Shown here: one piece after another, positions 1 to 14,005 of the stretch | Numbering within the stretch: the stretch's first letter is position 1 | Layout of the letters: every line of letters begins with the position of its first letter | NCBI GenBank assembly: GCA_020216745.1 | Contig: JAIWNQ010000185.1 | Location: 1-14,005, forward strand | Direction: 5' to 3' | Source: Candidatus Hydrogenedens sp. | GTDB taxonomy: Bacteria; Hydrogenedentota; Hydrogenedentia; Hydrogenedentales; Hydrogenedentaceae | Length of the DNA: 14,005 bases | The notes under the pieces: generated by a model | The model's database searches: none | Seen by the model: the letters and a program-made list of their open reading frames with translations, nothing else | What the model was told of the DNA's origin: nothing | Program-made: the position numbers and the translations under genes

Positions 1-656
1 GGTTAACGAGTGTGTACGGATATGAAGTAATCCCAATTAGATTATATATAATGGGTTTTGTTACACCTGAAAAGGGAAACCTTCCTTTTAATATAAATCC
101 TGACTATTATTACTTGAAGAATTACTCTCCAATGAAAGACTATGTCTCATTTTATGGAGGGAAAGATAATATCAAAAATTTAGTTTATTCAAAGATAATT
201 GTAGATAAAGAGGCATCAAAATATACAGATGATTTGTGGTTTCATAATAAAGCTCCGTTAAAAATCACTGTTATCTATTGGCTGATAAAATGGTTTATTC
301 CCATTGCTGTTATTTACTACCTTATTCTTTCCTGTATTTCCAGTTTGTTGGCAGGGATGATTGCATTTAACAAGAGAATTGCGCCCCCTAAAAAAGTACT
401 TTTTGTTATAGGGTTATTAAACTGTCTGACACTTGTCGGTTTTATTTTGTTAACCTATAGAATAATCTCCAAGTATGTTCCCAACGTTGATGAGAAAATA
501 AAAGAAATGGTAGAAAATGCAGGGTATGCTATTTATTACTATAATATCCAGCGTAAATTTTATGTGTGGTTCGTTTTAATTTTCCTTTTCCTTTCTTTAG
601 TCTCAATACATATTTTAAAGTTGTTATTAACGAACTATAGTTTATATACATCATAA
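1..656 (+). CDS. 3' end of DUF2330-like membrane-anchored protein (first of three paralogues)
   Basis: This is the C-terminal 217 residues of a gene that begins upstream of the window. The frame is open from base 3, and the GTG at 12 should not be taken as the start because the residues before it (LTS) align with LTR at the matching place in the next gene. What remains is the end of the extracytoplasmic domain, including IPIRLYIMGFV and YVSFYGG, which matches YASFYGP in gene 2. A membrane tail follows, with hydrophobic segments near residues 95-123, 136-153 and 183-205 of the fragment. The linker SSLLAGMIAFNKR is nearly repeated in gene 2 (CSLFAGIIAIPKR). The next gene starts 15 nt downstream, so the two are probably co-transcribed. 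The family assignment rests on gene 2. The function is unknown. Confidence 0.75.
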   Translation, partial: LTSVYGYEVIPIRLYIMGFVTPEKGNLPFNINPDYYYLKNYSPMKDYVSFYGGKDNIKNLVYSKIIVDKEASKYTDDLWFHNKAPLKITVIYWLIKWFIPIAVIYYLILSCISSLLAGMIAFNKRIAPPKKVLFVIGLLNCLTLVGFILLTYRIISKYVPNVDEKIKEMVENAGYAIYYYNIQRKFYVWFVLIFLFLSLVSIHILKLLLTNYSLYTS

Positions 657-671
657 AGAGGAAGAAATAAT

Positions 672-2177
672 ATGAGAATGGCTAATAAATATTTGTTAAG
701 CATATTTTTAACCCTGAATATTTTTTTTACAGGGGTTATTACTCATGCACATGCAGATGGGGTTGCTTACATGTATGATAAATATATGCAATATCCTCTG
801 AGAATAGTTAGAGAAAACACTCAAATAGGGTACATTAATTATGAGAATGGAAAAGAACATTTAATACTGAATGTGGTATTGCAGAGTGAGAAGAAAGAAG
901 GTGAAACACCAGGAGGTATGGTGTGGATTTTCCCTGTTCCGTCAAAACCCGAGGATATAGAGATTGATGTGATGCAGGACTTCTTTTTCCCAAAAAAAGG
1001 GAAAACAGTTGAAGAATTACTCCGTGAGAGATTGTTTACATTAAATCTTATTACTTTAATGTCGCAGGTTTATCCTTCTTTTCTTTTATTATTTCCTATA
1101 CATGATTTATTCCGTACACGAGAGATAAATTATGAAGAATATTCGGATAAAGGCTTTATGGAACAAATGTTAGGAGAAGGAAGTGTAGAAGTCCATAAAC
1201 ACGTGGAAAAATTAGGGTTAACTACAGAGTTAATTACAGCAAGTGATGGAAATGCATTGGAAACATATCTAAAAAGCAAAGGACTAAATTTTCCTGATTA
1301 TGTAAAGAATATTATTCAATCGTATATAGGACAAAAATTTTCCTTTGTAATTTCATGGGCGTCAGATTTAGAACGATTTTATTTTGAACAAACCGGAAGC
1401 ACAAATCAAAATAATATATATATAGGTAGAGAGTTTTTACAGATTGAGCATCCGCTTCAAGTCTTTATAAAGTTCAAGACAGACAGAATCTATTTTCCGC
1501 TAAAGCTGACCCGTGTTTATAAAGATTTAAATATCCCAATTTATATTTTTATTAAAGGCTTTGTTACTTGCGATATGGGAAAGATGAAAATAAAACCCCA
1601 GGTAAATTATTTTGTGAATCAGGGAAAATATGAAGTTCCATCTGAATATGCTTCTTTTTATGGACCTAAAACAATCAGGAATATGCCTGTTACTCGAATA
1701 CATATATCAGATAAGCCAAGTTCTTTTATAGAAGATTTATATTTTAATAAAGGTGCTCCCCCGGAAGTGATGTTAATCCACAGGTTCACATTCTGGGTAT
1801 TCCCTATATATGTTATAGTTTTTATCGCTGTCTCCTGTTTATGTAGTTTATTTGCGGGTATTATAGCCATTCCTAAAAGGGTTCGACCTGAATGTATTGA
1901 ATTATTAAAATTAGGGTTGTTTAATTGCTTTACTCTTGTTGGTTTTGTTTTAAAAGGGAATTCTTTGCTTGAGAAAAAAATCAATGAACTATATGAAAAA
2001 GATGAAGAGGGAAATAATGAACCATATAAATATTTAACAAGTGAGTACACAATAAAGAAAAGATTTTATATAGCATTTTCTATTCTTTTTCTTATTTTCA
2101 TGTTTATAATTCCCTACAACGTATACATTATTTATATCCATCCTTTATTAGAAAAACAGGTCCCAAAATTGTTCTAA
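672..2177 (+). CDS. DUF2330-like secreted, membrane-anchored protein (second paralogue)
   Basis: This is a 501-residue protein of unknown function. The ATG follows AGAGGAAG at 657-664 with a 7-nt gap; a second Met two codons later is also possible. Residues 1-28 look like a Sec signal peptide with cleavage after AHA. The outer domain (about 29-365) has features I associate with DUF2330 (PF10092): a strand-rich start, the motif WIFPVPS at 85-91, then the order ELITASDGNALETYL (186-200), a YIGQKFSFVISW stretch (218-229) and IYFPLKLTRVY (273-283). Three hydrophobic segments close the protein: about 373-400, 411-427 and 463-488. The first two are joined by a short basic Pro-containing loop (PKRVRP). 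The same tail occurs in both neighbours, so the outer domain is probably tethered to the cytoplasmic membrane from outside. The DUF2330 call is from memory of the motif pattern and not from a profile search. Confidence 0.72.
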   Translation: MRMANKYLLSIFLTLNIFFTGVITHAHADGVAYMYDKYMQYPLRIVRENTQIGYINYENGKEHLILNVVLQSEKKEGETPGGMVWIFPVPSKPEDIEIDVMQDFFFPKKGKTVEELLRERLFTLNLITLMSQVYPSFLLLFPIHDLFRTREINYEEYSDKGFMEQMLGEGSVEVHKHVEKLGLTTELITASDGNALETYLKSKGLNFPDYVKNIIQSYIGQKFSFVISWASDLERFYFEQTGSTNQNNIYIGREFLQIEHPLQVFIKFKTDRIYFPLKLTRVYKDLNIPIYIFIKGFVTCDMGKMKIKPQVNYFVNQGKYEVPSEYASFYGPKTIRNMPVTRIHISDKPSSFIEDLYFNKGAPPEVMLIHRFTFWVFPIYVIVFIAVSCLCSLFAGIIAIPKRVRPECIELLKLGLFNCFTLVGFVLKGNSLLEKKINELYEKDEEGNNEPYKYLTSEYTIKKRFYIAFSILFLIFMFIIPYNVYIIYIHPLLEKQVPKLF

Positions 2178-2216
2178 ATAGATTATGGAAATAATATAAA
2201 ACATTGGAAATGAATT

Positions 2217-3779
2217 ATGAACAAAATACAAATAATAACTCCCTTAAAGGTTATCCTGATACTCACTATTTCGATAGTGTCCTCTATGCCGATTTATGCA
2301 TGTGGTCTTATCATGGGTTATAACCCGGAAACGAAAGTATGGGAACCTATTTCTAATTTGAAATTTGATGTGAGAATTACTCTGCCAGATGACAAGATGC
2401 AATTAACAAAAATGTACATCGAATTTAATCGAGGAAAAACGGAAAGTTGGATCTGGTTATTCCCTGTTCCAGTTACTAATGTAGATATTCCTGTTGATTT
2501 GGTGAATAGTTTTGATTATCCCTACAATTATTATGTTTTGTCTGATGAAATGAGCACATTTTATAGAATCCTCGTTTCCCTTTACACAGGGTCACATGCC
2601 CATTTTGTATCGGTAAATGATATATTAGAAATGAAGGAGGAATTTAGTCCTCAAAATAAAAGGTCTTATCGTTTGCTTGTAGAAAAGAAATCGCCTACTA
2701 CTACATCAAAATTAGCATTAGAGACATGTACATTTTCTGCCGATAAAAAGGAGGAATTTTTCAAGTATATTGAAGATAAAAATTACACATTGTCTGAGAG
2801 TGAAAAAGAGGTAATACAAGAATATTTTACAAAAAACTTTTCTATTGTTTTTAATTACTTTTATATAAAAAAGCCAGAACTATCAGATGCAATGGTTGGA
2901 CTAAGTGAGGAAAGAAAAAAACTTTTAGATATGCCAGGAATGGAAATATTTTCAGATGTGATACAGAAAGAGGAAAGAAAAAGAGAATTAGAAATAGAAA
3001 AAGAAGCGTTAACTCCACATCCAGATAAAATATGTTTAAATGCATTTTATACAATAAATTCTATGCCATCAAAACAAATATTTTTCCCACAGAAACTGCT
3101 CAATTTATATTCAGGAGAGAAAATTCCAGTCAATATTTACATTGATAATGTTGTTAAAGTTATGAATGATAAAAACAAAAAAATGATGTATTATACATAT
3201 AATTTCAGAATAGATAATCAATTAGTTAATTTTAAATTACTACAAATTCGGGATGTGCCGAGAATTGTTTCAGCACCAAAAAGACAGTTGCTATCGCTAA
3301 AAAGAAAGATTGAGAAGTTATATGGAGATAGAGCATCCGATTCGATAAAGAAAAATACATTCAAAGGAATGGATAATGACACAGGAGATAAAAATACTTC
3401 TGTTCAAGAATCGTTAGAAAAGTATGTTTCCCAGCCAATTTTCAAGGCGATTTCATATATGAATTACTCTATAGACCCAAAAGAAGTTAAAGACGACCTG
3501 TGGCTAAAGACGGACACGCTTACAATGAAAGTACTATTTTATTTTATATCACCTCTATATACAATTCCTTCTGTTGTGTTACTATACTTTCATATTATTT
3601 TCTATGCAATTGTCACTATGATTATGAGTATTATTGCTGGAATGATATGTTTCAAAGATAAAACCCGCCCATGGAAAATTACTCTCATTGTTTTAGGTTT
3701 CCTTTATGGTATCCATGTCCTATTATTCTGCATAGTCATTTTTTTTGATATATCTATATCGCTGTTTAACGATACCTAA
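2217..3779 (+). CDS. DUF2330-like membrane-anchored protein (third paralogue), probably frameshifted near its 3' end
   Basis: The frame gives 520 residues. Residues 1-28 form a signal peptide ending IYA, followed directly by Cys29-Gly. This may be a lipoprotein site, although Tyr at -2 is poor for a lipobox, or an ordinary signal peptidase I site. WLFPVP at 81-86 matches WIFPVP in the preceding paralogue. An insertion rich in Lys and Glu (about 225-265) and a polar stretch (about 350-400) make the outer domain more divergent than in gene 2. The membrane tail begins near 437, with SIIAGMICFKDKTRPWK matching the SLFAGIIAIPKRVRP loop of gene 2. The frame then ends early, after a T8 run at 3739-3746, with residues FDISISLFNDT and no final helix. 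Dropping one T extends it to 567 residues and a stop at 3919-3921. The ribosome site is weak (GGA at 2207-2209). Function is unknown. Confidence 0.7.
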   Translation: MNKIQIITPLKVILILTISIVSSMPIYACGLIMGYNPETKVWEPISNLKFDVRITLPDDKMQLTKMYIEFNRGKTESWIWLFPVPVTNVDIPVDLVNSFDYPYNYYVLSDEMSTFYRILVSLYTGSHAHFVSVNDILEMKEEFSPQNKRSYRLLVEKKSPTTTSKLALETCTFSADKKEEFFKYIEDKNYTLSESEKEVIQEYFTKNFSIVFNYFYIKKPELSDAMVGLSEERKKLLDMPGMEIFSDVIQKEERKRELEIEKEALTPHPDKICLNAFYTINSMPSKQIFFPQKLLNLYSGEKIPVNIYIDNVVKVMNDKNKKMMYYTYNFRIDNQLVNFKLLQIRDVPRIVSAPKRQLLSLKRKIEKLYGDRASDSIKKNTFKGMDNDTGDKNTSVQESLEKYVSQPIFKAISYMNYSIDPKEVKDDLWLKTDTLTMKVLFYFISPLYTIPSVVLLYFHIIFYAIVTMIMSIIAGMICFKDKTRPWKITLIVLGFLYGIHVLLFCIVIFFDISISLFNDT

Positions 3780-3995: not shown

Positions 3996-5816
3996 ATGGA
4001 TTTTATGAGTATTTCGTTGATGTTTGTTTTGATGACAATGGGTGCTTTTGAGGATATGTTCAAGCCAATTCCTCTGGATGCAGTTAAAGTCAGTGGCGAA
4101 ATGGGCAGACGAATAGATATGACGATATATAACAATACAATGGTAATGGATATTGATGGTGAGTTTTTAGAACCATTTATAAAAAAGGAAAATGATGAAG
4201 GTGGATATGTTGGAATAGGCAAGACTATTGATGCGTTGGTTCGATTTGCTAAATACACCAACGACCCAAAGGTAATTGAACGCAAAAATCATGTTGTTAA
4301 AACATTGCTTGATGCACAGGAAAAAGATGGATATATCGGTTTATTTAAGGAAGGTGCTCGTGTGTGGAGACTTTGGGATATACATGAGATTGCCTACATA
4401 ATCTATGGGCTTGTGATGGAATATCGGTTCTTTGGTGATGAATCTGCATTAGAAGGAGCCAGGAAAGCCGGTGATTATCTCATTCAAAATATGAGCCCAT
4501 ACCCGGGACGCATCCCCGGCGATGGTGATATATGCTGGGAGATGGGTACCACTGGCGTTGAAACTGCAATGCTCTGCTTGTATGAGGATACAAAAGATGC
4601 AAAATATTTAGATTTCGTTAAAAACTACATGAAATTAGACCAGTGGGATGGACCGATTATAAAAGGCAGATGGGGGACCATACAGGGGCATGCCTATGCT
4701 CATTTGAAACGATGCATGGCAAAAATGCAGTTAAACCGTATCGAAACAAATATGGACCTGTTAAAACCAAGCAGTAAAGTACTCGATTTTATATTAAAGA
4801 ATAATGGACTGGTTATAATCGGCACATGCGGACAGCACGAATGCTGGCACGATACGCAAGAGGGAAGTTGTAATCTCGGTGAAACATGCATGACTGCTTA
4901 TTTAATCCGATGGTGGGATGAATGGTTAAGAGAAACCGGTAATCCAAAATTTGGCGATTTAATGGAGCGTGCTATTTATAACGCCTTATTCGGTGCTCAA
5001 TCGTTAGATGGTCGAAAGATCCGCTACTATACGCCATTTGAAGGGAAACGAGTATATTTTGACCAGGATTCTTATTGCTGTCCATGTAACTTCCGCAGGA
5101 TAATTTCGGAATTGCCTCAGATGATATATTACACAAACGATAAATCCATTTATATAAACCTATTTACCCCTTCAAAAGCCAGTTTAACTGTTGATAATAC
5201 CCCTATCGAAATAGAACAAGAGACAAATTATCCATCAGATGGGATTGTGAAAATTAAAATCAGCAAAATTCCAAAAGAGATGGCTTTTCCTATATCATTT
5301 CGTGTTCCTTCCTGGTGTAAAGAAATCAAAACAAGGATAGATAACGGAGATTGGATAGTAAAGGATGATTTAGCAGGGGGTATATTGGCAATAGGAAGTT
5401 CTTGGAAAAAAGGTTCCGTACTTGAAATTGACTTGGGGATTAGGACGCGTATTATCCGTGGAGTTCAGGCTCAAGCAGGTAGAGTTGCTGTTATGTATGG
5501 ACCGCAGGTATTCTGTGTGAGCAAAAAATCAAATCCTGCACTTGAAGATAAAGATTTAAGAAACCTTACTATTGACCCAAAGACTTTAGAAGGACCATTT
5601 CCAGATGATACTGTGCGGAAAGGTGGCTTAAAATTTACAGTAAAAGGCTGGAATACACTCAGCTGGTATCCACTTGTAAAGTATGATTATGAGAACATTG
5701 TTCTGACAGAATTCCCCGACCCCGACGGTGAAATGACCTACTTACATGTCCCCAATCCCGAAGACCCATTATTTGAGCAAGATGAGTTTATAGGATTTGA
5801 CCTTTCAATAAAGTAG
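3996..5816 (+). CDS. DUF1680/GH127-like glycoside hydrolase, exported (copy 1)
   Basis: This 606-residue protein has the layout of DUF1680 (PF07944), the family that includes the GH127 beta-L-arabinofuranosidase HypBA1. An (alpha/alpha) barrel fills the first two thirds and beta-sandwich regions follow. In HypBA1 a zinc is held by Glu338, Cys340, Cys417 and Cys418, with Cys417 as nucleophile. The matching residues here are Glu296 and Cys298 (GETC) and Cys361-Cys362 (CCPCN). Glu282 (QHECW) is a candidate acid/base. The fold motifs GYVGIGKTIDA, WDIHEIAY and the aromatic YTPFEGKRVYFDQD are intact. A short hydrophobic start (about 1-18, ending MGA) suggests export but has no Lys or Arg. The likely substrate is a terminal beta-L-arabinofuranoside or similar sugar, but the exact specificity cannot be read. 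Its neighbour at 5946 is a close paralogue, about 60% identical by eye. Confidence 0.85.
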   Translation: MDFMSISLMFVLMTMGAFEDMFKPIPLDAVKVSGEMGRRIDMTIYNNTMVMDIDGEFLEPFIKKENDEGGYVGIGKTIDALVRFAKYTNDPKVIERKNHVVKTLLDAQEKDGYIGLFKEGARVWRLWDIHEIAYIIYGLVMEYRFFGDESALEGARKAGDYLIQNMSPYPGRIPGDGDICWEMGTTGVETAMLCLYEDTKDAKYLDFVKNYMKLDQWDGPIIKGRWGTIQGHAYAHLKRCMAKMQLNRIETNMDLLKPSSKVLDFILKNNGLVIIGTCGQHECWHDTQEGSCNLGETCMTAYLIRWWDEWLRETGNPKFGDLMERAIYNALFGAQSLDGRKIRYYTPFEGKRVYFDQDSYCCPCNFRRIISELPQMIYYTNDKSIYINLFTPSKASLTVDNTPIEIEQETNYPSDGIVKIKISKIPKEMAFPISFRVPSWCKEIKTRIDNGDWIVKDDLAGGILAIGSSWKKGSVLEIDLGIRTRIIRGVQAQAGRVAVMYGPQVFCVSKKSNPALEDKDLRNLTIDPKTLEGPFPDDTVRKGGLKFTVKGWNTLSWYPLVKYDYENIVLTEFPDPDGEMTYLHVPNPEDPLFEQDEFIGFDLSIK

Positions 5817-5945
5817 CAAATACAATTTTAAAATAATCTATTAGGTTTTACCTCCTGAATTTGAGTATAGATTGACTTTTAGATATTTATTACCCATATC
5901 GAGATTCACCAATATATTTAAACTTTTTATAGAAGGGGACTATAT

Positions 5946-7757
5946 ATGATTATAAGTGTTAGTGTTTTTTGTATTATAAGTTCGCTTTGTGTAGCTGAAG
6001 ATGCTTTTTTATCCCAAATCCCAATAGATTCTATTAAAGTAGGAGGAGAGTTCGGTAGACGAATGCAGACAACAATTTATAATAATTCAATGGTTATAGA
6101 TATTGATGAATTTTTTCTTGACGATTTCCGAAAAAAAGAGGATTGTGATGGATATGTTGGAATGGGTAAGACCATAGACGCATTTGCAAAATTTGCCAAA
6201 TATACGAATGACCCCAACGTAATAAAGAAGAAGGAGTATATAGTGAATACCATTTTAGGACTACAAGAGCCGGATGGATATATCGGTTATTTGAAACCAG
6301 AATGCAGAGTATGGACATTGTGGGATATTGCAGAGATAAGTTATATTATTTTGGGGTTACTTACAGAGTATAGATTGTTTGATAACGAAAAGGCTTTTGA
6401 TGGAGCGAAAAGAGCAGGCGATTACCTTATAGAAAAAATGAGTCCATATCCCGGCAGAATACCTGCCCCCGGTGATTTATGCTGGGAAATGGGAACAATA
6501 GGTGTCGAAGATGCCATGTTAAGTTTATATGAGGAGACGAAAGATACTAAATATCTTAACTTTGTAAAAGATTATATGCGACTACCTCAATGGGACATGC
6601 CAATTGTTAAGGGTAGATGGGGGAAAGTGGAAGGACATGTATATACTTATATAAAACGATGTATGGAAAAGCAGAAACTTTATAGAATAGAACCCGATGA
6701 GGATTTATTAACACCATCAAAGCGAGTAATGGATTTTCTGTTGAAAGGGAACGGATTGGTTATTACTGGCACATCCGGTCAACATGAATGCTGGCACGAT
6801 ACACAAGAGGGGATAGCAAACTTAGGTGAAACCTGTGCAACTGCTTATTTAATAAGATGGTGGGATGAATTATTAAGGTGGTTTCATGATTCAAGGTATG
6901 CCGATTTAATGGAACGCACTATTTACAATGCACTTTTTGCTGCTCAGTCACCAGATGGAAGAAAAATAAGATATTACACGCCGTTTGAAGGTAAGCGAGT
7001 ATATTTCGACCAGGATAATTACTGTTGTCCTTGTAATTATAGAAGAATGATAGCGGATATTCCATGCATGGTATATTACCTTGGGGAAAAGGGAATTTAT
7101 GTTAGTTTATATACTCAGTCTAAAGCGAATATGAAATTGAAGAATACCAATTTGGAAATTGCACAGGACACACGGTATCCGAGTGATGGTAAAGTAAAAC
7201 TATCTGTAAATCCATCGAACCCCGAAGTGTTTTCAATATTTCTTCGTATTCCTTTATGGTGCAAGACATTTGAAGTTATGGTAAACGGAGAGAAAGTGTC
7301 AACAGAAAGAATTAGTGGTGGTTCGTGGTATGAGATTAGAAGGGAGTGGAAAAAAGATGATGTCATAGAGTTGTCGTTAGATATGAAAGTAAGATTTATT
7401 AAAGGGGTCCAGGTGCAGGCGGGGAGATGTGCATTGATGTATGGACCTGTTGTGTTTTGCATGAGCACAGTCAAAAACCCCTATCTCAAAGAAGTACCAA
7501 TAAGAGCAATAACCATAGACCTTAATACCGTAGAAGGACCATTCAGAGACGATTCAATCAGAGAAGATGGATTAATGTTAAAAGTAAAGGGCTGGAGAAC
7601 TACCACATGGTATCCGCATGCCAAGTATGATTATGATAACATTGTTCTGACAGAATTTCCTGACCCCGATGGAGAAATAACATACTTCCATGTTCCTAAT
7701 CCCGAAGACCCATTGATAGAAAACGATGAATTCTTGGGTATGAATATATGGAAGTAA
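5946..7757 (+). CDS. DUF1680/GH127-like glycoside hydrolase, exported (copy 2)
   Basis: This 603-residue protein is a tandem paralogue of the preceding gene, colinear along its whole length. The candidate metal and nucleophile residues are Glu295 and Cys297 (GETC) and Cys360-Cys361 (CCPCN). The candidate acid/base, in QHECWHDTQEG, is also kept, so both copies should be active. The signal peptide is clearer than in copy 1: residues 1-17 are hydrophobic and end CVA before EDAF, again without a basic residue at the front. AGGGG at 5934-5938 precedes ATG 5946 by 7 nt, and a TAA at 5919-5921 closes the frame upstream with no other start between. Some stretches are identical in DNA to copy 1, for example AACATTGTTCTGACAGAATT near 5695 and 7639. 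This supports duplication over convergence. Differences in the barrel loops (SCN versus IAN before the GETC motif) could mean different substrates. Confidence 0.85.
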   Translation: MIISVSVFCIISSLCVAEDAFLSQIPIDSIKVGGEFGRRMQTTIYNNSMVIDIDEFFLDDFRKKEDCDGYVGMGKTIDAFAKFAKYTNDPNVIKKKEYIVNTILGLQEPDGYIGYLKPECRVWTLWDIAEISYIILGLLTEYRLFDNEKAFDGAKRAGDYLIEKMSPYPGRIPAPGDLCWEMGTIGVEDAMLSLYEETKDTKYLNFVKDYMRLPQWDMPIVKGRWGKVEGHVYTYIKRCMEKQKLYRIEPDEDLLTPSKRVMDFLLKGNGLVITGTSGQHECWHDTQEGIANLGETCATAYLIRWWDELLRWFHDSRYADLMERTIYNALFAAQSPDGRKIRYYTPFEGKRVYFDQDNYCCPCNYRRMIADIPCMVYYLGEKGIYVSLYTQSKANMKLKNTNLEIAQDTRYPSDGKVKLSVNPSNPEVFSIFLRIPLWCKTFEVMVNGEKVSTERISGGSWYEIRREWKKDDVIELSLDMKVRFIKGVQVQAGRCALMYGPVVFCMSTVKNPYLKEVPIRAITIDLNTVEGPFRDDSIREDGLMLKVKGWRTTTWYPHAKYDYDNIVLTEFPDPDGEITYFHVPNPEDPLIENDEFLGMNIWK

Positions 7758-8001: not shown

Positions 8002-9822
8002 ATGTTACAAAAGTGGGCGAAAGAAATAATAAGGTTCTTGTCTGTAAAAAATCAATTTGTTTTGCATGGAAATATTTATGATATTTACCCATTCCCTTTA
8101 ACGACTGAAGGTGAAACAAAAGTAGTAACATTAACATTATCTAATTTTATTGCAAACTTGTTAAAACAAGAGGAGCAATATTCAATATTTTTGAATTATG
8201 AACCATTATTTGGGTTTAAATTGATAGAAGGGGAGACTTCTCTAATTAAAGAAATTACTGGGGTTGATATATGTAAAGATAAGTTTTATAACGCTACTTT
8301 ATCTAATGGATATGAAATTATTGAAAAAATTGTAACTAATGATAGACATCCATCGGCAATAATCCTGAATTTTTCTTCTCGTTTTGCTGAGGTTATAGGA
8401 GAACAAGCCCACCTGAATGGGTTTTATTATAAGATGTTTCGCCTGTGCCTAAATACTTTTCCTAAGCTAATGGGTTCTAATTATCCTCGTTATAACTTAA
8501 TATTCTGGATATTAGAAAAAGAAAACGATATTCCTTCATGGTTTACTATTGAGAATCCCAAACTTAAAACAATAAGTATTCCCAAACCTGATAATGAAGT
8601 TCGAAACCAGATTATTAATTCAATTGTAGGTGAGGACGACCAGTTTAAAAATTTAGATGGAAATAAACAAAAAGACATAATAGGAGTATTTGTGGATCAA
8701 ACATCTAAAATGCAAGGGACAGAGATAATATCTATTGTTTCACTTGCCAGAAGAGAGAAATTAACGTTGGCAGAAATAGGTGAAGCCATCCGTAGGTATA
8801 AAATAGGAGTGATAGAAAATCCATGGGCAAAAATTGAATTATCCAAAATTGAACAAATGGAACAATTGATAGAGAATAGAGTAAAAGGACAAAAAAGGGC
8901 GGTAAAAAAAGCAGTCGACATAGTTCGGCGTTCATTTTATAATCTTTCAGGGGCACAATTTTCAAGATACTCCCAAAAACCCAAAGGTATTTTGTTTTTA
9001 GCAGGACCTACAGGAGTAGGAAAAACAGAATTAGCTAAAACAATAGCGGAAGTTATATTCGGAAGTGAAACAGCATATATTCGATTTGATATGTCTGAGT
9101 TTGGTCATGAACATTCCGACCAAAGATTATTAGGTGCTCCTCCGGGCTATGTAGGCTATGATGTAGGTGGAGAATTAACAAATTCTATAAAACAAAATCC
9201 GTTTACAGTTGTTCTTTTTGATGAAATTGAAAAAGCACATCCCAAAATTCTTGATATCTTTTTACAAATTCTCGATGACGGAAGGCTTACATCCGGTCGT
9301 GGAGAAACTGTTTATTTTTCAGAGGCTTTAATTGTATTTACATCTAATCTTGGTGTTTATGATATAGGTCCTGGGGGAGAAAAGATTCAAAGAATTAATC
9401 CCGATATGGAATATGAAAAAGTAGAAAAAAGTATTCTGGAAGCCATAGGAGATTTTTTTAAGTTTAGAATTTCTAGGCCCGAAATATTAAATAGGATAGG
9501 CGAAAATATAGCGGTCTTTGATTTTATTCGTCCACGAGGGGCAGAACTTATATTTAGAAAAATGTTTGAAAATGTGTTATTTAAATTAGAAGATACTCAT
9601 AAAATTATTCCGGTTATTAACGAAGAAACAATAGAAAAAATAAAAACTATTGTATGTTCAGATCTTTCTATGGGAGGACGGGGTATTGGAAATAAAATTG
9701 AAGAAGTGTTTATTAATCCTTTATCCCAATCTTTAATTAGAATAAAACCAGAACCAGGAATGAAAATTGAGATATTAGATATAGTTGAGAACCAAGATGA
9801 GTGGGTATTGAAGATTCAATGA
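8002..9822 (+). CDS. ClpB/ClpA-type AAA+ ATPase with a degenerate first AAA domain
   Basis: This 606-residue protein is likely a cytoplasmic hexameric unfoldase-type ATPase. The C-terminal part (about 285-606) is a full ClpB D2-like module. It has Walker A GPTGVGKT (335-342), pore loop GYVGY (382-386), Walker B VVLFDEIEKAH (D407, E408), sensor 1 TSNLG (N449), RPEILNRI with candidate arginine finger R498, a sensor 2-like GGRG (R560) and a Clp small domain ending in a beta strand. The first 270 residues look like an AAA fold that has lost catalysis. HGNIYDIYPF (22-31) stands where a P-loop should be and IILNFSSRF (120-128) where Walker B should be, while NLIFWILEK (165-173) and SIPKPDNEVR (192-201) keep the sensor 1 and lid-entry pattern. 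There is no Clp N domain, no coiled-coil M domain and no ClpP-binding IGF loop that I can see. It is the first gene of the operon, and its stop overlaps the next start. Confidence 0.85.
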   Translation: MLQKWAKEIIRFLSVKNQFVLHGNIYDIYPFPLTTEGETKVVTLTLSNFIANLLKQEEQYSIFLNYEPLFGFKLIEGETSLIKEITGVDICKDKFYNATLSNGYEIIEKIVTNDRHPSAIILNFSSRFAEVIGEQAHLNGFYYKMFRLCLNTFPKLMGSNYPRYNLIFWILEKENDIPSWFTIENPKLKTISIPKPDNEVRNQIINSIVGEDDQFKNLDGNKQKDIIGVFVDQTSKMQGTEIISIVSLARREKLTLAEIGEAIRRYKIGVIENPWAKIELSKIEQMEQLIENRVKGQKRAVKKAVDIVRRSFYNLSGAQFSRYSQKPKGILFLAGPTGVGKTELAKTIAEVIFGSETAYIRFDMSEFGHEHSDQRLLGAPPGYVGYDVGGELTNSIKQNPFTVVLFDEIEKAHPKILDIFLQILDDGRLTSGRGETVYFSEALIVFTSNLGVYDIGPGGEKIQRINPDMEYEKVEKSILEAIGDFFKFRISRPEILNRIGENIAVFDFIRPRGAELIFRKMFENVLFKLEDTHKIIPVINEETIEKIKTIVCSDLSMGGRGIGNKIEEVFINPLSQSLIRIKPEPGMKIEILDIVENQDEWVLKIQ

Positions 9823-10412
9823 AAAGAAGAATTACACCTTTAATACAGTTAATTTATTTTCCAATTTTTACACTGGGTCCAGGAAAACGCTTAGGTATCT
9901 GGTTCCAGGGATGCACAATCCGATGTAAAGGCTGTATAGCAAATCATAGTTGGGAATTTGACCCACAATATAAAATGAAATGGAAAGAGATAGAAAGTTA
10001 CTTAAAAAATGAGTATGGAAAACTTACTATTTCAGGTGGTGAACCTTTCGACCAACCAGAAGCACTCTTGAAATTACTTAAAATGGCGAGAAAATATAGA
10101 TATAATGATATTCTTGTTTATTCAGGTTACACATATACTGTCTTAGATAAAAAATATCCTGATATTTTATATTATATTGATATATTAATAGATGGACCTT
10201 TTATGGAAAAGAATGAAACATCTGCTATATGGAAAGGTTCAGGAAATCAAAATATGTATATTTTTAATCCAGAATTAAAAGAACTTTATGAATCTTATGG
10301 ATTAAAAGAGAAAAATAGAAGTTTGCAATTTGTTGAAGGAAAACAAGGGACCTTTGTGGTTGGTATTCCTTTTCAAAAAGATACACAGGAGATAAAAGAT
10401 GCCATTAATTAA
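9819..10412 (+). CDS. Radical SAM protein, NrdG/activase-like
   Basis: This 197-residue protein is probably a single-domain radical SAM enzyme. It has the cluster motif CTIRCKGC (Cys32, 36, 39; CX3CX2C) and the SAM-binding GGEPF (73-77). DGPF (125-128) and KGSGNQ (139-144) are also present, a pattern seen in NrdG-type activating enzymes. Size and motifs fit proteins that install a glycyl radical on a partner, but no glycyl radical enzyme is in the window and the target is unknown. I chose ATG 9819, which overlaps the AAA+ stop as ATGA and allows translational coupling. An in-frame GTG at 9801 would add six residues with no better ribosome site. The last 14 bases overlap the next gene. A one-cluster protein of this kind next to kinase/phosphatase genes may sense redox state or oxygen, but that is inference. 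Confidence 0.85.
   Translation: MKRRITPLIQLIYFPIFTLGPGKRLGIWFQGCTIRCKGCIANHSWEFDPQYKMKWKEIESYLKNEYGKLTISGGEPFDQPEALLKLLKMARKYRYNDILVYSGYTYTVLDKKYPDILYYIDILIDGPFMEKNETSAIWKGSGNQNMYIFNPELKELYESYGLKEKNRSLQFVEGKQGTFVVGIPFQKDTQEIKDAIN
10387..10391 (+). promoter_or_regulatory. Ribosome binding site of the zinc-ribbon/FHA gene
   Basis: AGGAG ends 7 nt before ATG 10399 and lies inside the 3' end of the radical SAM gene. It supports the overlapping start, which leaves the first Cys pair of the zinc ribbon at residues 7 and 10. Confidence 0.65.
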
Positions 10413-10857
10413 GATTTGTCCCGCTTGTAAAGCAGAAAATAAAGCAGAGAGTATAATTTGCAATTTTTGTATGACAGATATTTCTTCACTTAGTCCACTA
10501 AATACTGATTTAGCTAGTGAAAAACCTACAAATGTTCTACAAGAGGAAACTAAAGAAAATCCTTGTTTGTTGGTTCAATTTGAAAATCACAATGATAGCA
10601 TAAAAATATATAATGGAGATATTATAGGTAGACATTGTAAGTGTAAAGAACTGCTCCAGAAATATAAAACAATTTCACGTAAACATGTTACATTTATTTT
10701 TGAGAATAATAAGTGGTATATCCAGGATTTGAATAGCTCTAATTATACATATCTTAATAATCAAAAAATAAATCCAGGAACAAAATACGAAATAAAACCG
10801 AAGGATGTAGTAAGTTTATCTCAGGATGTGGATATTAAAATAATAGAAGGAATGTAA
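10399..10857 (+). CDS. Zinc-ribbon plus FHA phosphothreonine-reader protein
   Basis: This is a 152-residue soluble protein. Residues 7-24 form a short zinc ribbon: Cys7 and Cys10 (CPAC), then Cys21 and Cys24 (CNFC). A polar linker of about 30 residues follows. The FHA domain (about 56-150) keeps the phosphopeptide-binding residues: Gly77-Arg78 (IIGR), Ser93-Arg94-Lys95-His96 (SRKH) and Asn115 in LNSSNYTYLN, where the usual Gly after Asn is Tyr. FHA domains bind phosphothreonine, so this protein should dock to a target marked by the kinase at the end of the operon and cleared by the PP2C encoded next. The zinc ribbon may serve as a second contact. The start lies inside the radical SAM gene by 14 bases, and the stop is 14 nt before the PP2C start. 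Confidence 0.88.
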   Translation: MPLIKICPACKAENKAESIICNFCMTDISSLSPLNTDLASEKPTNVLQEETKENPCLLVQFENHNDSIKIYNGDIIGRHCKCKELLQKYKTISRKHVTFIFENNKWYIQDLNSSNYTYLNNQKINPGTKYEIKPKDVVSLSQDVDIKIIEGM

Positions 10858-10871
10858 GAGGGGTATTTTGT

Positions 10872-11624
10872 ATGGATATAAAAGTTTCGTATATATGTAA
10901 TAGAGGAACTCAAAGGGAAAATAATGAAGATTCTATTCTTATTAATGGGGAGATTTTTATGGACGCAAATGGCGAGAAGATAATGACAAATGTAGAAAAA
11001 GCCCTATTTATTGTTGCAGACGGAATGGGAGGAGCAATGTACGGAGAAATTGCTGCTAAGATTGTTCTTGAAACCCTTGTCCAAAACCCAATGAATTCAA
11101 TGGAAAATATATTTTCTACTTTAATCAAAGCCAATGAGGAACTCCATTTATATGCGGAAAAGAATTGTGATTCGTTGGAAATAGGTTCTGCTGTAGCAGG
11201 TTTATCTCTGGAAGGCAATACAGCACATGTTTTTAATGTTGGAGATTGTCGTATTTACAGGAAAAACGAAGATTTCCTTCAGCAAGTTTCCAAAGATACC
11301 TCTGTTGTAGGCAAGTTGCTGGAGCAAGGAATTATTTCTTATGAAGAGGTGAGAACTCATCCTCAACGTAGTGTTTTAACCTGTGCTCTTTCAAGTAAAA
11401 CAGATAGTAATTCGCTCGAAATTTATTACCGTGAATTAAGATTATCTAATGAAGAAACTTTCTTACTATGTTCTGATGGCCTTTGGGATGTTTTAGATGA
11501 AAGTGAAATGGAAAATTGTATTAATATGCAAAACGGAAATAGAGCCGTCTCTCTATTCCAGAAAACAATCGAAAAAGGCGATAAAGATAATATCAGCATT
11601 ATTTTAATGGAGGTAAGATTATGA
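10872..11624 (+). CDS. PP2C-type (PPM) Ser/Thr protein phosphatase
   Basis: This 250-residue, single-domain, cytoplasmic phosphatase is about the usual size for bacterial PP2C. The metal-binding motifs are all present: RENNED (Asp20), VADGMGG (Asp50-Gly51), NVGDCRIY (122-129), CSDGLWD (Asp202) and KDNIS (Asp239). A catalytically active Mn/Mg-dependent enzyme is therefore expected, removing phosphate from Ser/Thr on targets of the linked kinase. A small insertion (about 25-42) separates the first two motifs. AGAGGGG at 10857-10863 precedes the ATG by 8 nt. The stop overlaps the next gene's start by four bases (ATGA at 11621-11624), so phosphatase and coiled-coil protein are probably made in a coupled ratio and may act together. 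Confidence 0.93.
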   Translation: MDIKVSYICNRGTQRENNEDSILINGEIFMDANGEKIMTNVEKALFIVADGMGGAMYGEIAAKIVLETLVQNPMNSMENIFSTLIKANEELHLYAEKNCDSLEIGSAVAGLSLEGNTAHVFNVGDCRIYRKNEDFLQQVSKDTSVVGKLLEQGIISYEEVRTHPQRSVLTCALSSKTDSNSLEIYYRELRLSNEETFLLCSDGLWDVLDESEMENCINMQNGNRAVSLFQKTIEKGDKDNISIILMEVRL

Positions 11625-13186
11625 GTTCAATAACTGTGTCATGGGGGATTTCTTTCGCCAATGAAAAAGAAATTTATGAACATAATCACAAATTACTTTC
11701 TGAGGATCTTTTACATATGATCGAGGAAATTCACAAGACTATTGGTGGAAAAGAAATATATTCTGAGGAAATTAAAAAAGAATATGATTCTTTGGTCAGA
11801 ATGAAAAATCAGATTTTACAAGAACACACATATGAAAGAATTCTTGCTTCAGGCTATGAAAAATGGTATGAAAAGAAAATAGATGAATTTAATAAACGTT
11901 CTTTACGGGTAAAGAAGATAATAAAAGAGATTAAAGATAAAAAGATTTTTGATATATTGAGGTATTGGGAAGTAATAAAAGGACAAACTCAATTCATTGA
12001 GGTAAATAAGATAAAAACTTCGATAGATATGTTAAACAAGTTATCCTTAACAGATTTAGCGCATTTAAAAGAAAAATTAGAAAGCTTTGTAGAGTACATT
12101 CAAAAGTATAATTTTACAAAAGAACAAATAAAGAAAATAACAATCCAAGAAGGAGAGGGAAACATTCACAAAAAAATTAGAAAAGGAATCGCAAGTATAG
12201 AAAAATTGAAAGATGATAGGTCATTAAATATACCGCAAAAAATAAAAAAGTTACAAGAAACGATGGAAGAAATTAATTTATCAAAGAATTTACTTGAAGA
12301 ATTAATGAGTTTAAATTTGGATAATGAGAATTATTCAGTTACAAAAATACTATCAAAAGAAAAAAAAGAAGAAAAGGAAAAGATAGAAAACAAAAAAGAA
12401 ATTCTTCAGCAAGAAGTAGAAAAATATTTATCAATGCTTGAGAGAATAGATCCTGATGAATGTAATAATCTTAGGGAAAAAATGAGTGAATATTTAGGAA
12501 AGGATAATATCGAAATACTTAGGAATGTCAGAGATAAAATTAAAATTGTTTATGGTGACATAAAAGAGAAATATTACTATACTAAAGTATACGAGGAAGA
12601 AATAAGTGCAATGTTAGAAGATAAGAATATAAAAGACTCTACTATAGTAGAGTTAGCCAAGAATTTGTTAGAGAAAAAATACATAGAATCGAAAGAGTTT
12701 TGGCAATTATTTTATGCCTATGAAGAAAAAAAGAGAATTGAGAATATTAAGCAAGAAAAAAGAAGAATATTTGAAAAGTTTTTGCAGACCTTAGAAACAA
12801 AAGGGTATTCTCTAATTGAAAAAGGAAATATTTTGGAGATAGGTGAAGATAAAATAATAGAAATACAAACTCCCTTAGGGAATAGTTATAAAATACAAGT
12901 TAAATTTGATAAAGATGGCCAAATCATCACGAGATTTGTAAAAGAAGTAGAAGAGCAAGATATTAGTGAGTATGAAAAGCAGATGGATAAAGAGAGTGCC
13001 CAAAAATGGTGTAAAGTGTATAAAGAATCGATTGTTGAGATGAATAAAGAAGGTTATCCGATAGAGATAAAAGCGATGCAAGAACCGGAAGAAGTGGGTA
13101 TTATATATGTAGAGAGGAAAGGTATATCAAAAGTTAAAAGAGAACAAAAAGGTTTGATACCTAAAACGAAAGAGAAAGAAGTATAA
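11621..13186 (+). CDS. Large coiled-coil protein of unknown family
   Basis: I do not recognise this 521-residue protein. It has no signal peptide and no membrane segment. Residues 1-80 contain a short start (SITVSWGISFA) and helices. About 85-385 is dominated by charged Lys/Glu-rich helices that should form long coiled coils, with a likely break around 225-240. About 385-500 looks like a compact mixed alpha/beta domain, with strand-like stretches such as NILEIG, KIIEIQTPLG, YKIQVKF, QIITRFV and VGIIYVERK. The tail is basic (KVKREQKGLIPKTKEKE). Its start overlaps the PP2C stop as ATGA. The kinase begins 31 nt after it. Its place between phosphatase and kinase makes it a good candidate for the shared phosphorylated substrate or a scaffold, but nothing in the sequence proves this. 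The heavy use of AAA, GAA and ATA codons contrasts with the kinase that follows. Confidence 0.7.
   Translation: MSSITVSWGISFANEKEIYEHNHKLLSEDLLHMIEEIHKTIGGKEIYSEEIKKEYDSLVRMKNQILQEHTYERILASGYEKWYEKKIDEFNKRSLRVKKIIKEIKDKKIFDILRYWEVIKGQTQFIEVNKIKTSIDMLNKLSLTDLAHLKEKLESFVEYIQKYNFTKEQIKKITIQEGEGNIHKKIRKGIASIEKLKDDRSLNIPQKIKKLQETMEEINLSKNLLEELMSLNLDNENYSVTKILSKEKKEEKEKIENKKEILQQEVEKYLSMLERIDPDECNNLREKMSEYLGKDNIEILRNVRDKIKIVYGDIKEKYYYTKVYEEEISAMLEDKNIKDSTIVELAKNLLEKKYIESKEFWQLFYAYEEKKRIENIKQEKRRIFEKFLQTLETKGYSLIEKGNILEIGEDKIIEIQTPLGNSYKIQVKFDKDGQIITRFVKEVEEQDISEYEKQMDKESAQKWCKVYKESIVEMNKEGYPIEIKAMQEPEEVGIIYVERKGISKVKREQKGLIPKTKEKEV
12636..12653 (+). repeat. Perfect 18-bp palindrome inside the coiled-coil gene
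   Basis: The bases ACTCTACTATAGTAGAGT read the same on both strands over 18 positions with no spacer, and symmetry ends at the next pair (G/T). The codons are ordinary (encoding DSTIVEL), so it may be chance. It could also be an operator for a dimeric regulator. Confidence 0.6.
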
Positions 13187-13204
13187 TATAATTATAAGAA
13201 TAAT

Positions 13205-13209
13205 GGAGG
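13205..13209 (+). promoter_or_regulatory. Ribosome binding site of the kinase gene
   Basis: GGAGG ends 8 nt before ATG 13218. An in-frame ATG at 13203 overlaps this site and has no ribosome site of its own. A further in-frame ATG at 13377 is preceded by AAAAGGGG and could give a shorter product that starts just before the kinase domain. Confidence 0.65.
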
Positions 13210-13217
13210 CAGGTAAG

Positions 13218-14005
13218 ATGTTCGAAGAGATAGATCATACAGAACGGAAGAGGGATGAAGAGATAGGAGAAGACACCAATCTGACGGTGAGTACCACAGA
13301 TAAGACCATAATAAGAGAGAGAGAGGTTATAACAGAGGAAACGATGCGAAAGAGCGAAGAGAGTAAAAGGGGTAAAATGAAGATAGATAAATTTCGAGGG
13401 TATGATGTTTTGGAGGAGTTGCCGGCGCGGGGAGGTGAGGCAGATATTTATCGAATTCGTAATTCTGTAGGAGAGGAATATGCGTTGAAATTATACCGTC
13501 GGGGTATGGACCCGAATCCGGAGGTTTTGCGAGAGATACAGGAACTAAGCCATCGGTATCCGGCCCATCTGGTATATATATATGAAGTAGGCTATGATGA
13601 GGATACGGGACGGTGGTATGAGTTGATGGAATATGCGAGGTACGGCAATTTACGGGAGTATGTAAAGAGAGGGGGTGTAGTAGATATAAAGGGTATTCTT
13701 CGGGAGATAAACGAGGCATTACATTCCTTACATGAACATGGTGTAATCCATCGAGACATCAAGCCGACCAATATACTGGTTCGTAATTCGGAGCCTTTGG
13801 ACTTAATATTTACGGACTTTGGAGTATCATCCTTGATAGATGGGGAATTATCGAAGAAGATGACGACGGTAAAGGGAACTCCGATGTATAGTGCTCCGGA
13901 GAGTTTCAGTGGGGTGATGGGACGAGAGGTAGATTATTGGGGATTAGGGATGGTGATGTATGAGTTAATAGTAGGAAGCCATCCATTTACGGGATTAGAT
14001 TACAA
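13218..14005 (+). CDS. Hanks-type Ser/Thr protein kinase (5' part, runs off the window)
   Basis: The frame is open from ATG 13218 to the window end, giving 262 residues without a stop. Residues 1-55 are a charged, Thr-rich extension. The kinase domain starts near 57. It has a Gly-rich loop LPARGGEADIY (68-78), ATP-anchoring Lys91 (ALKLY), catalytic loop HRDIKPTNIL (Asp180, Lys182, Asn185), DFG at 200-202, activation segment with GTPMYSAPES (APE 226-228) and DYWGLGMVMYEL. All catalytic residues are present, so it should be active. It pairs with the PP2C and FHA proteins just upstream. The C-terminal part, where sensor or membrane domains often lie, is not visible. Composition differs from the upstream genes: GC is near 50% in some stretches (32/60 at 13501-13560), with frequent CGG, GAG and GGG codons, against about 27% (16/60) at 12361-12420. 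A TATAAT hexamer at 13182-13187 overlaps the previous stop and could be part of an internal promoter. Confidence 0.92.
   Translation, partial: MFEEIDHTERKRDEEIGEDTNLTVSTTDKTIIREREVITEETMRKSEESKRGKMKIDKFRGYDVLEELPARGGEADIYRIRNSVGEEYALKLYRRGMDPNPEVLREIQELSHRYPAHLVYIYEVGYDEDTGRWYELMEYARYGNLREYVKRGGVVDIKGILREINEALHSLHEHGVIHRDIKPTNILVRNSEPLDLIFTDFGVSSLIDGELSKKMTTVKGTPMYSAPESFSGVMGREVDYWGLGMVMYELIVGSHPFTGLDY

Follow-up and report, generated by a model that had tools for sequence, protein, structure and literature searches.

A Clp-type ATPase and radical SAM cassette with a phosphothreonine circuit in Candidatus Hydrogenedens, and its possible role in conflict or defence

Type VI secretion loci combine the ATPase ClpV with an FHA protein (TagH), a kinase (PpkA) and a PP2C phosphatase (PppA). 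Mokosh is recognised by the helicase MkoA together with MkoB. In the FtsH branch of the AAA/vWA ternary conflict systems an AAA protein and a radical S-adenosylmethionine (SAM) protein occur in one locus, according to the available part of PMC7159879. Here we describe an operon of six genes in contig JAIWNQ010000185.1 of Candidatus Hydrogenedens sp. (Hydrogenedentota; assembly GCA_020216745.1), hereafter the window, which is one entire contig of 14,005 bases from an assembly of 295 contigs with an estimated completeness of 86%. The operon encodes a Clp-type ATPase, an NrdG-like radical SAM protein, an FHA protein, a PP2C phosphatase, a coiled-coil protein and a Ser/Thr kinase. We see an even chance that it represents one variant of a cassette that has spread horizontally, built on the coiled-coil family (here termed X), a half-dead Clp ATPase and an NrdG-like radical SAM protein, with a probable anti-mobile-element role in conflict or defence.

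Mokosh and, among the ternary conflict systems, the branch with AAA and radical SAM proteins come closest in theme; both are defined by other proteins, the latter as far as described in the available part of PMC7159879. The helicase of one plasmid-borne version of the cassette (L116) matches the PADLOC model of MkoA (340 bits) and its PIN protein weakly matches MkoB, and the window's kinase matches the start of an MkoA model (80.8 bits). Unlike Mokosh, the window has no helicase; only the kinase part of MkoA is matched, in a contig that ends within the kinase gene, and the X, ATPase and radical SAM proteins match no Mokosh model. Where the ternary systems have FtsH and vWA proteins, the cassette has a Clp-type ATPase, X and a phospho-circuit (PMC7159879, same part). 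The PADLOC systems Dodola (DolB, 67 bits) and PDC-M37B (100 bits) share a ClpB-like AAA core with the cassette, but the match, compared on the ATPase alone, is confined to the common AAA part. The kinase reached 81.6 bits against MAD6, the one MADS gene compared, with a cut-off of 460. No unfoldase-plus-radical-SAM system was found in Pfam, NCBIfam, PADLOC or the open-access literature, a coverage that leaves out most subscription journals and may have missed an earlier description. The proteins of known type are new members of their superfamilies, and X has no Pfam family.

The conserved core

Both outcomes that the initial annotation named as refuting it fail: other genomes carry the gene set too, and the ATPase and FHA proteins reach no curated ClpV or TagH cut-off. 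All six genes stand in one run, in permuted order, in four Caldicellulosiruptor-type genomes (L168, L169, L171 and L172), whose X is homologous to the window's coiled-coil protein. The order X-ATPase-radical SAM-FHA-PP2C-kinase was found in L163, from the phylum of an Oscillospiraceae metagenome-assembled genome (MAG), with a similar run in L157 (phylum of Burkholderia), and kinase-ATPase-radical SAM-FHA in L161 and L162 (phylum of a Nitrospirae MAG). An annotated plasmid of Aristaeella lactis carries, in this order, a DUF4011 protein, a kinase, X (recognised by the iterated family search), FHA, radical SAM, ATPase, PP2C, a DUF6273 protein and a kinase.

Linkage was counted in 34 loci selected by the ATPase (7 full-length loci, 8 plasmid regions out of 20 records and 19 stretches), with profiles built from these loci themselves; 73 ordinary ClpB loci were scanned with the same profiles as controls. 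Within 3 kb of the ATPase, NrdG-like genes were present in 30 loci, X in 24, FHA in 18, kinase in 16 and PP2C in 10, and within 8 kb the values were 31, 29, 18, 20 and 10, respectively. The control loci had no NrdG-like, X, FHA or PP2C gene at either distance, and a kinase in one (3 kb) or two (8 kb) of them. Once L160, a duplicate of L030, had been dropped, an NrdG-like gene lay within 3 kb in 29 of the 33 distinct loci, versus 0 of 73 ClpB loci (Fisher 4.6e-22, ignoring kinship). The radical SAM protein is a true partner, as the initial annotation had supposed. A separate count of nine loci in the window's phylum, made up of the window itself and eight found via NrdG-like matches, gave NrdG-like 9, X 4, FHA 5, PP2C 4 and kinase 5. 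A tally based on a greedy choice of open reading frames (ORFs), with NrdG-like proteins in 37 of 43 loci, is an undercount.

The co-occurrence of ATPase, NrdG-like and coiled-coil proteins, proposed in the initial annotation as a check, was also borne out at the genome level for the ATPase and X. Among 398 genomes, 12 were positive for a profile of the first ATPase ring and 10 for a profile of the X C-terminal domain, and all ten were among the twelve (Fisher 2.7e-18, ignoring kinship; four of the ten are Caldicellulosiruptor-type and six supplied profile rows). We are close to certain that the genes form a conserved cassette with an X-ATPase-radical SAM core.

The ATPase belongs to the Clp/Hsp100 superfamily, with a Clp-type second ring that keeps Walker A and B, and is a Clp-type unfoldase by fold. 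Its first ring lacks Walker A, and this combination is found in 48 of 48 relatives, in agreement with the half-dead ClpB-type ATPase originally proposed. The protein is not ClpB itself (247.5 bits against the NCBIfam equivalog, cut-off 1232) and differs from the unfoldases ClpB, ClpC and Hsp104 in its dead first ring and in having neither N-domain nor middle domain.

The radical SAM protein belongs to that superfamily (Pfam Radical_SAM, 30.3 bits, cut-off 29.5). Its best NCBIfam match is NrdG, at 96.7 bits, below the equivalog cut-off of 126.1. In the 47 NrdG-like proteins collected, some of them from loci without the cassette ATPase, CxxxCxxC and both glycines of the GGE motif are present in all (47/47) and the glutamate in 44; in a G-S-x-N-Q stretch, G, S, N and Q are each kept in 45-46 of the 47. 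The cassette enzyme shares these residues with NrdG and the pyruvate formate-lyase activases, but its partners are a Clp ATPase and X, and Pfam and NCBIfam scans of the window revealed no gene for a glycyl radical enzyme. These features point to a small activase-type enzyme that would act on a protein. Viperin-like chemistry was considered and rejected (prokaryotic viperin in NCBIfam, 22.3 bits, cut-off 180).

The coiled-coil protein was correctly described as lacking a known family, with none above cut-off in Pfam, NCBIfam or PADLOC scans; it belongs to the broad family X. The one relative of it that carries a name comes from a Candidatus Hydrogenedens MAG. A profile from the C-terminal 148 residues of window-type proteins retrieved the X of other loci (L122, E 2.9e-6; L163, E 2.3e-5), and an iterated search gave 33 X ORFs at 32 distinct places, the window included. 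The coiled coil may inflate the scores of the iterated search, and the test on the C-terminal domain therefore matters. In the alignment of 22 such domains the single invariant column is a cysteine (22/22 rows), which the window's X also has. All 31 X proteins with a placed start begin with Met-Ser (20 where the ORF first offers a start, 11 at an internal Met-Ser chosen by hand), and eight with MSGPK; the placed starts agree with seven of eight annotated plasmid copies and disagree with that of L115. The 32nd X (L165) has LSGPK inside a longer frame. The structure model (mean predicted local distance difference test, pLDDT, 79.5; predicted template modelling score, pTM, 0.39) consists of a long helical rod and a small alpha/beta end domain, with Cys464 placed by the prediction in helix 450-476 of that domain. 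A Gly-Tyr pair at 395-396 (Gly in 29 of 31 aligned rows) was considered as a possible glycyl-radical site; its position fits a helix-strand turn. As regards membrane insertion, neither the window's X nor P0124 has a hydrophobic segment above the threshold used, and P0123 has one at residue 10.

Partner modules, surroundings and spread

Three recurring arrangements surround the core. In the first, that of the window, the partners are the FHA protein, PP2C phosphatase and kinase. In the second, Bradyrhizobium L028 has a single protein of 2,087 residues with kinase, DUF4011, superfamily 1 (SF1) helicase and MTES_1575 nuclease domains, which matches PADLOC PDC-S37 (478 bits). Kinase-bearing ORFs of 2,105-2,366 residues occupy the same place in Burkholderia L030 and in Sphingomonas L033 and L156, and Rhizobium plasmid L112 has one of 1,824 residues next to a separate kinase ORF; these four were assigned by size and kinase match. 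In the third, an SF1 helicase accompanies a PIN protein in five of the eight plasmid regions (L114-L117 and L119), with L173 added by similarity. By gene content, the FHA/PP2C/kinase set is one of several interchangeable modules attached to the core.

The Caldicellulosiruptor-type kinase of L168 (12410-14530, minus strand) carries W..GF-like repeats in a row and, close to its end, two hydrophobic segments. Of six further kinases, three have hydrophobic segments at the C terminus, which suggests that some versions sense at the membrane. In one cassette from the window's phylum, a protein with an FGE-sulfatase domain follows the kinase (L123, 4929-6158, minus strand), with a similar ORF in L122. 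Past the cassette of an Acinetobacter plasmid (L117, 14178-16160) there is a second trio, annotated as a small AAA ATPase, a radical SAM protein and a hypothetical protein.

Genes of type III CRISPR (clustered regularly interspaced short palindromic repeats) systems adjoin some copies. According to PADLOC models, Cas6, Csm5 and Csm3 genes flank the cassette in L168, with relatives in L169 and L171; L171 also has a Csx1-type gene and a relative of the ORF that begins at the edge of L168. An ORF near the L171 cassette (16635-17903, minus strand) matches both the Csx1 model and Cas12f models, and we presume that it may be a TnpB-like transposon gene. The Cas10 and Csm4 models each matched one flank ORF among the sampled loci. 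Repeat arrays adjoin L168 and L172, and in Methylocaldum L031 the radical SAM gene is followed by Cmr1, Cmr2 and Cmr4 genes. With the limited queries and flanks used, CRISPR genes or arrays were found in five loci of the ATPase set (L031, L168, L169, L171 and L172).

Flank ORFs of 150-1000 residues were sampled from the family (100 of 184) and the controls (100 of 606), the family sample being a random 110 minus the last seven and minus three taken out manually: the genes at the PIN position in L114 and L115 and, in L156, the one that precedes the ATPase. At 1e-20, 47 PADLOC models were matched in the family sample versus 2 in the control sample; among the matches listed, which cover 25 of the 47 models, most belong to type III CRISPR systems and fall on the same small number of genes. 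Pfam, run on the family sample only, gave four RAMPs and two phage integrases; for the most part it showed ordinary metabolic or housekeeping families, each seen once.

The ATPase has a patchy distribution, in 5 of 200, 2 of 198, 12 of 398 and 11 of 68 genomes, the last set being the window's phylum; it was found in none of the three same-genus genomes examined, and cassette copies occur on plasmids. In a quick maximum-likelihood tree (midpoint drawing), the window's copy grouped with Caldicellulosiruptor-type, Nitrospirae and related copies (Shimodaira-Hasegawa-like approximate likelihood ratio test, SH-aLRT, 100), apart from eight other copies of its own phylum, a position that indicates horizontal transfer. 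The core recurs in several phyla.

The operon in the window

The six ORFs (Table 1) are tightly packed, with overlaps of 4, 14 and 4 nt and gaps of 14 and 31 nt when computed with ATG 9819 and ATG 13218, as originally annotated. GGAG/GGAGG-like sites precede the starts of the ATPase, FHA and X genes and the start at 13218. Family matches (Pfam, NCBIfam and PADLOC) are to AAA_2 and the ClpB second ring, Fer4_12 and NrdG-like, FHA, PP2C and Pkinase, and all five known-family proteins retain active-site or binding motifs; writer, eraser and reader of phosphothreonine keep their key residues, as had been claimed. Because the window spans the whole contig, the kinase gene is truncated at its 3' end and whatever follows it is outside view; a search for the remainder of the kinase across the assembly, made without a positive control, gave no match. 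The glycosidase pair upstream of the operon lies outside the cassette in every relative seen.

Table 1. Features of the 14,005-base window
Feature	Coordinates	Strand	Remarks
Three adjacent membrane-type proteins	3-3779		one weakly DUF2330-like; first truncated by contig start
Two tandem GH127-type glycosidases	3996-7757		NCBIfam near aceric acid hydrolase, below cut-off
Clp-type ATPase	8002-9822	+	degenerate first AAA ring (residues ~1-250), intact second ring (~277-606)
NrdG-like radical SAM protein	9819-10412	+	CxxxCxxC and GGEP present; alternative GTG start at 9801 also open
FHA protein, phosphothreonine reader	10399-10857	+	two CxxC pairs (zinc-ribbon-like) and FHA domain
PP2C phosphatase (Stp1-like), eraser	10872-11624	+	PP2C family match and motifs
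Family X (coiled-coil) protein	11621-13186	+	long helical rod and C-terminal alpha/beta domain (~375-500); Cys464 aligned to the invariant Cys
Ser/Thr protein kinase, writer	13218-14005	+	cut by contig end; alternative start at 13203

Conflict or defence and the alternatives

The type III CRISPR neighbours, the plasmid copies and the helicase or nuclease partners of some relatives favour a conflict or defence role, and we lean slightly towards it on this genomic context. Such a role is more likely than housekeeping for a phospho-switched unfoldase and radical SAM system. In some other bacteria CRISPR genes adjoin the cassette, which may represent a defence or stress system not described before. 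For the window's own cassette we infer defence; the window itself holds no sign of it. The initial annotation had proposed phospho-controlled, possibly redox-gated protein remodelling: remodelling fits, but the phospho-circuit is an exchangeable module and the surroundings of the relatives favour conflict or defence.

Several observations weigh against this explanation of the cassette. The radical SAM gene is missing within 3 kb in 4 of the 34 loci and X in 10 of the 34. The CRISPR link comes from two genera, the 47 PADLOC models are mostly redundant for a few CRISPR genes, and many other flanks are ordinary metabolism. A DNA search of 5,426 E. coli genomes found no cassette copy. The window has neither a nuclease nor a CRISPR gene, and its upstream 8 kb consist of the GH127-type glycosidases and DUF2330-like genes.

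In the mechanism that we propose, the kinase would sense a trigger and phosphorylate X, the ATPase or both; the FHA protein would bind the phosphothreonine and dock or gate the ATPase; the ATPase, powered by its single working ring, would thread or remodel X, or a target bound to X; the radical SAM enzyme would place a radical-based modification on the exposed protein; and PP2C would reset the switch. In other lineages, the kinase-helicase-nuclease fusion or the Mokosh-like helicase with its PIN protein would be the killing arm, and in the phospho-only version the output may be the kinase or modified X itself. That the radical SAM enzyme acts on X is a tentative proposal. It is somewhat more doubtful that the whole is an immune machine in which an unfoldase with one dead ring threads X for radical SAM modification, with a phosphothreonine switch setting the timing and killing arms differing from one bacterium to another.

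The alternative that survives best, and the closest to the view of the initial annotation, is a phospho-regulated system of protein quality control or stress response, with the ATPase as a disaggregase for X or X-bound clients and the radical SAM protein as a modifier or redox sensor. The unfoldase fold, the phospho-only version with no nuclease in view, the metabolic genes of many flanks and the C-terminal hydrophobic segments of some kinases, which fit a membrane sensor, are all consistent with it. However, patchy spread, horizontal transfer, plasmid copies and the helicase or nuclease partners of other versions speak for something else, and we consider this alternative unlikely, with perhaps one chance among several.

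Less probable still is protein maturation, in which the ATPase and radical SAM protein would mature X, or a putative short partner, into an effector or a radical-bearing subunit of an enzyme. The X-ATPase linkage, the invariant cysteine and uniform Met-Ser start of X and the small radical SAM proteins of activase type, whose motifs are intact, suit this idea, and there is a precedent in the peptide-maturing radical SAM enzymes of some AAA-containing conflict systems, as reported in the available part of PMC7159879. However, X is large and mostly helical, unlike a precursor peptide, no SPASM-type extension was reported, and the Pfam and NCBIfam scans of the window show no gene for a glycyl radical enzyme.

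We think it improbable that the cassette serves type III CRISPR systems as an accessory module. Csm genes adjoin the Caldicellulosiruptor-type loci and Cmr genes the Methylocaldum locus, but a constant association with cas10 loci was not found: the CRISPR signal is limited to the five loci named above, and the others, plasmids included, had no match with the queries used. A term search of two type III reviews found no mention of radical SAM, ClpB, AAA or FHA. Least of all does the operon look like a piece of a secretion locus, type VI or other: a Clp ATPase, an FHA protein, a kinase and PP2C co-occur in both, but the ClpV and TagH models gave 198.5 and 25.5 bits against curated cut-offs of 885 and 120, the conserved partners are X and the radical SAM protein, and the annotations of the eight plasmid regions include no type VI gene. 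In keeping with the original remark that core genes are absent, no sheath, baseplate or membrane-complex gene is among the ORFs of the window, but its contig ends in the kinase.

The Caldicellulosiruptor-type copies, with the six genes together, make the cassette testable. If its core is not immune, it would still be a machine for protein modification that is widely conserved, and the substrate of its radical SAM enzyme can be looked for directly, starting with X. If the core is indeed an immune device, it would tie ATP-driven protein threading to radical chemistry under phospho-control.

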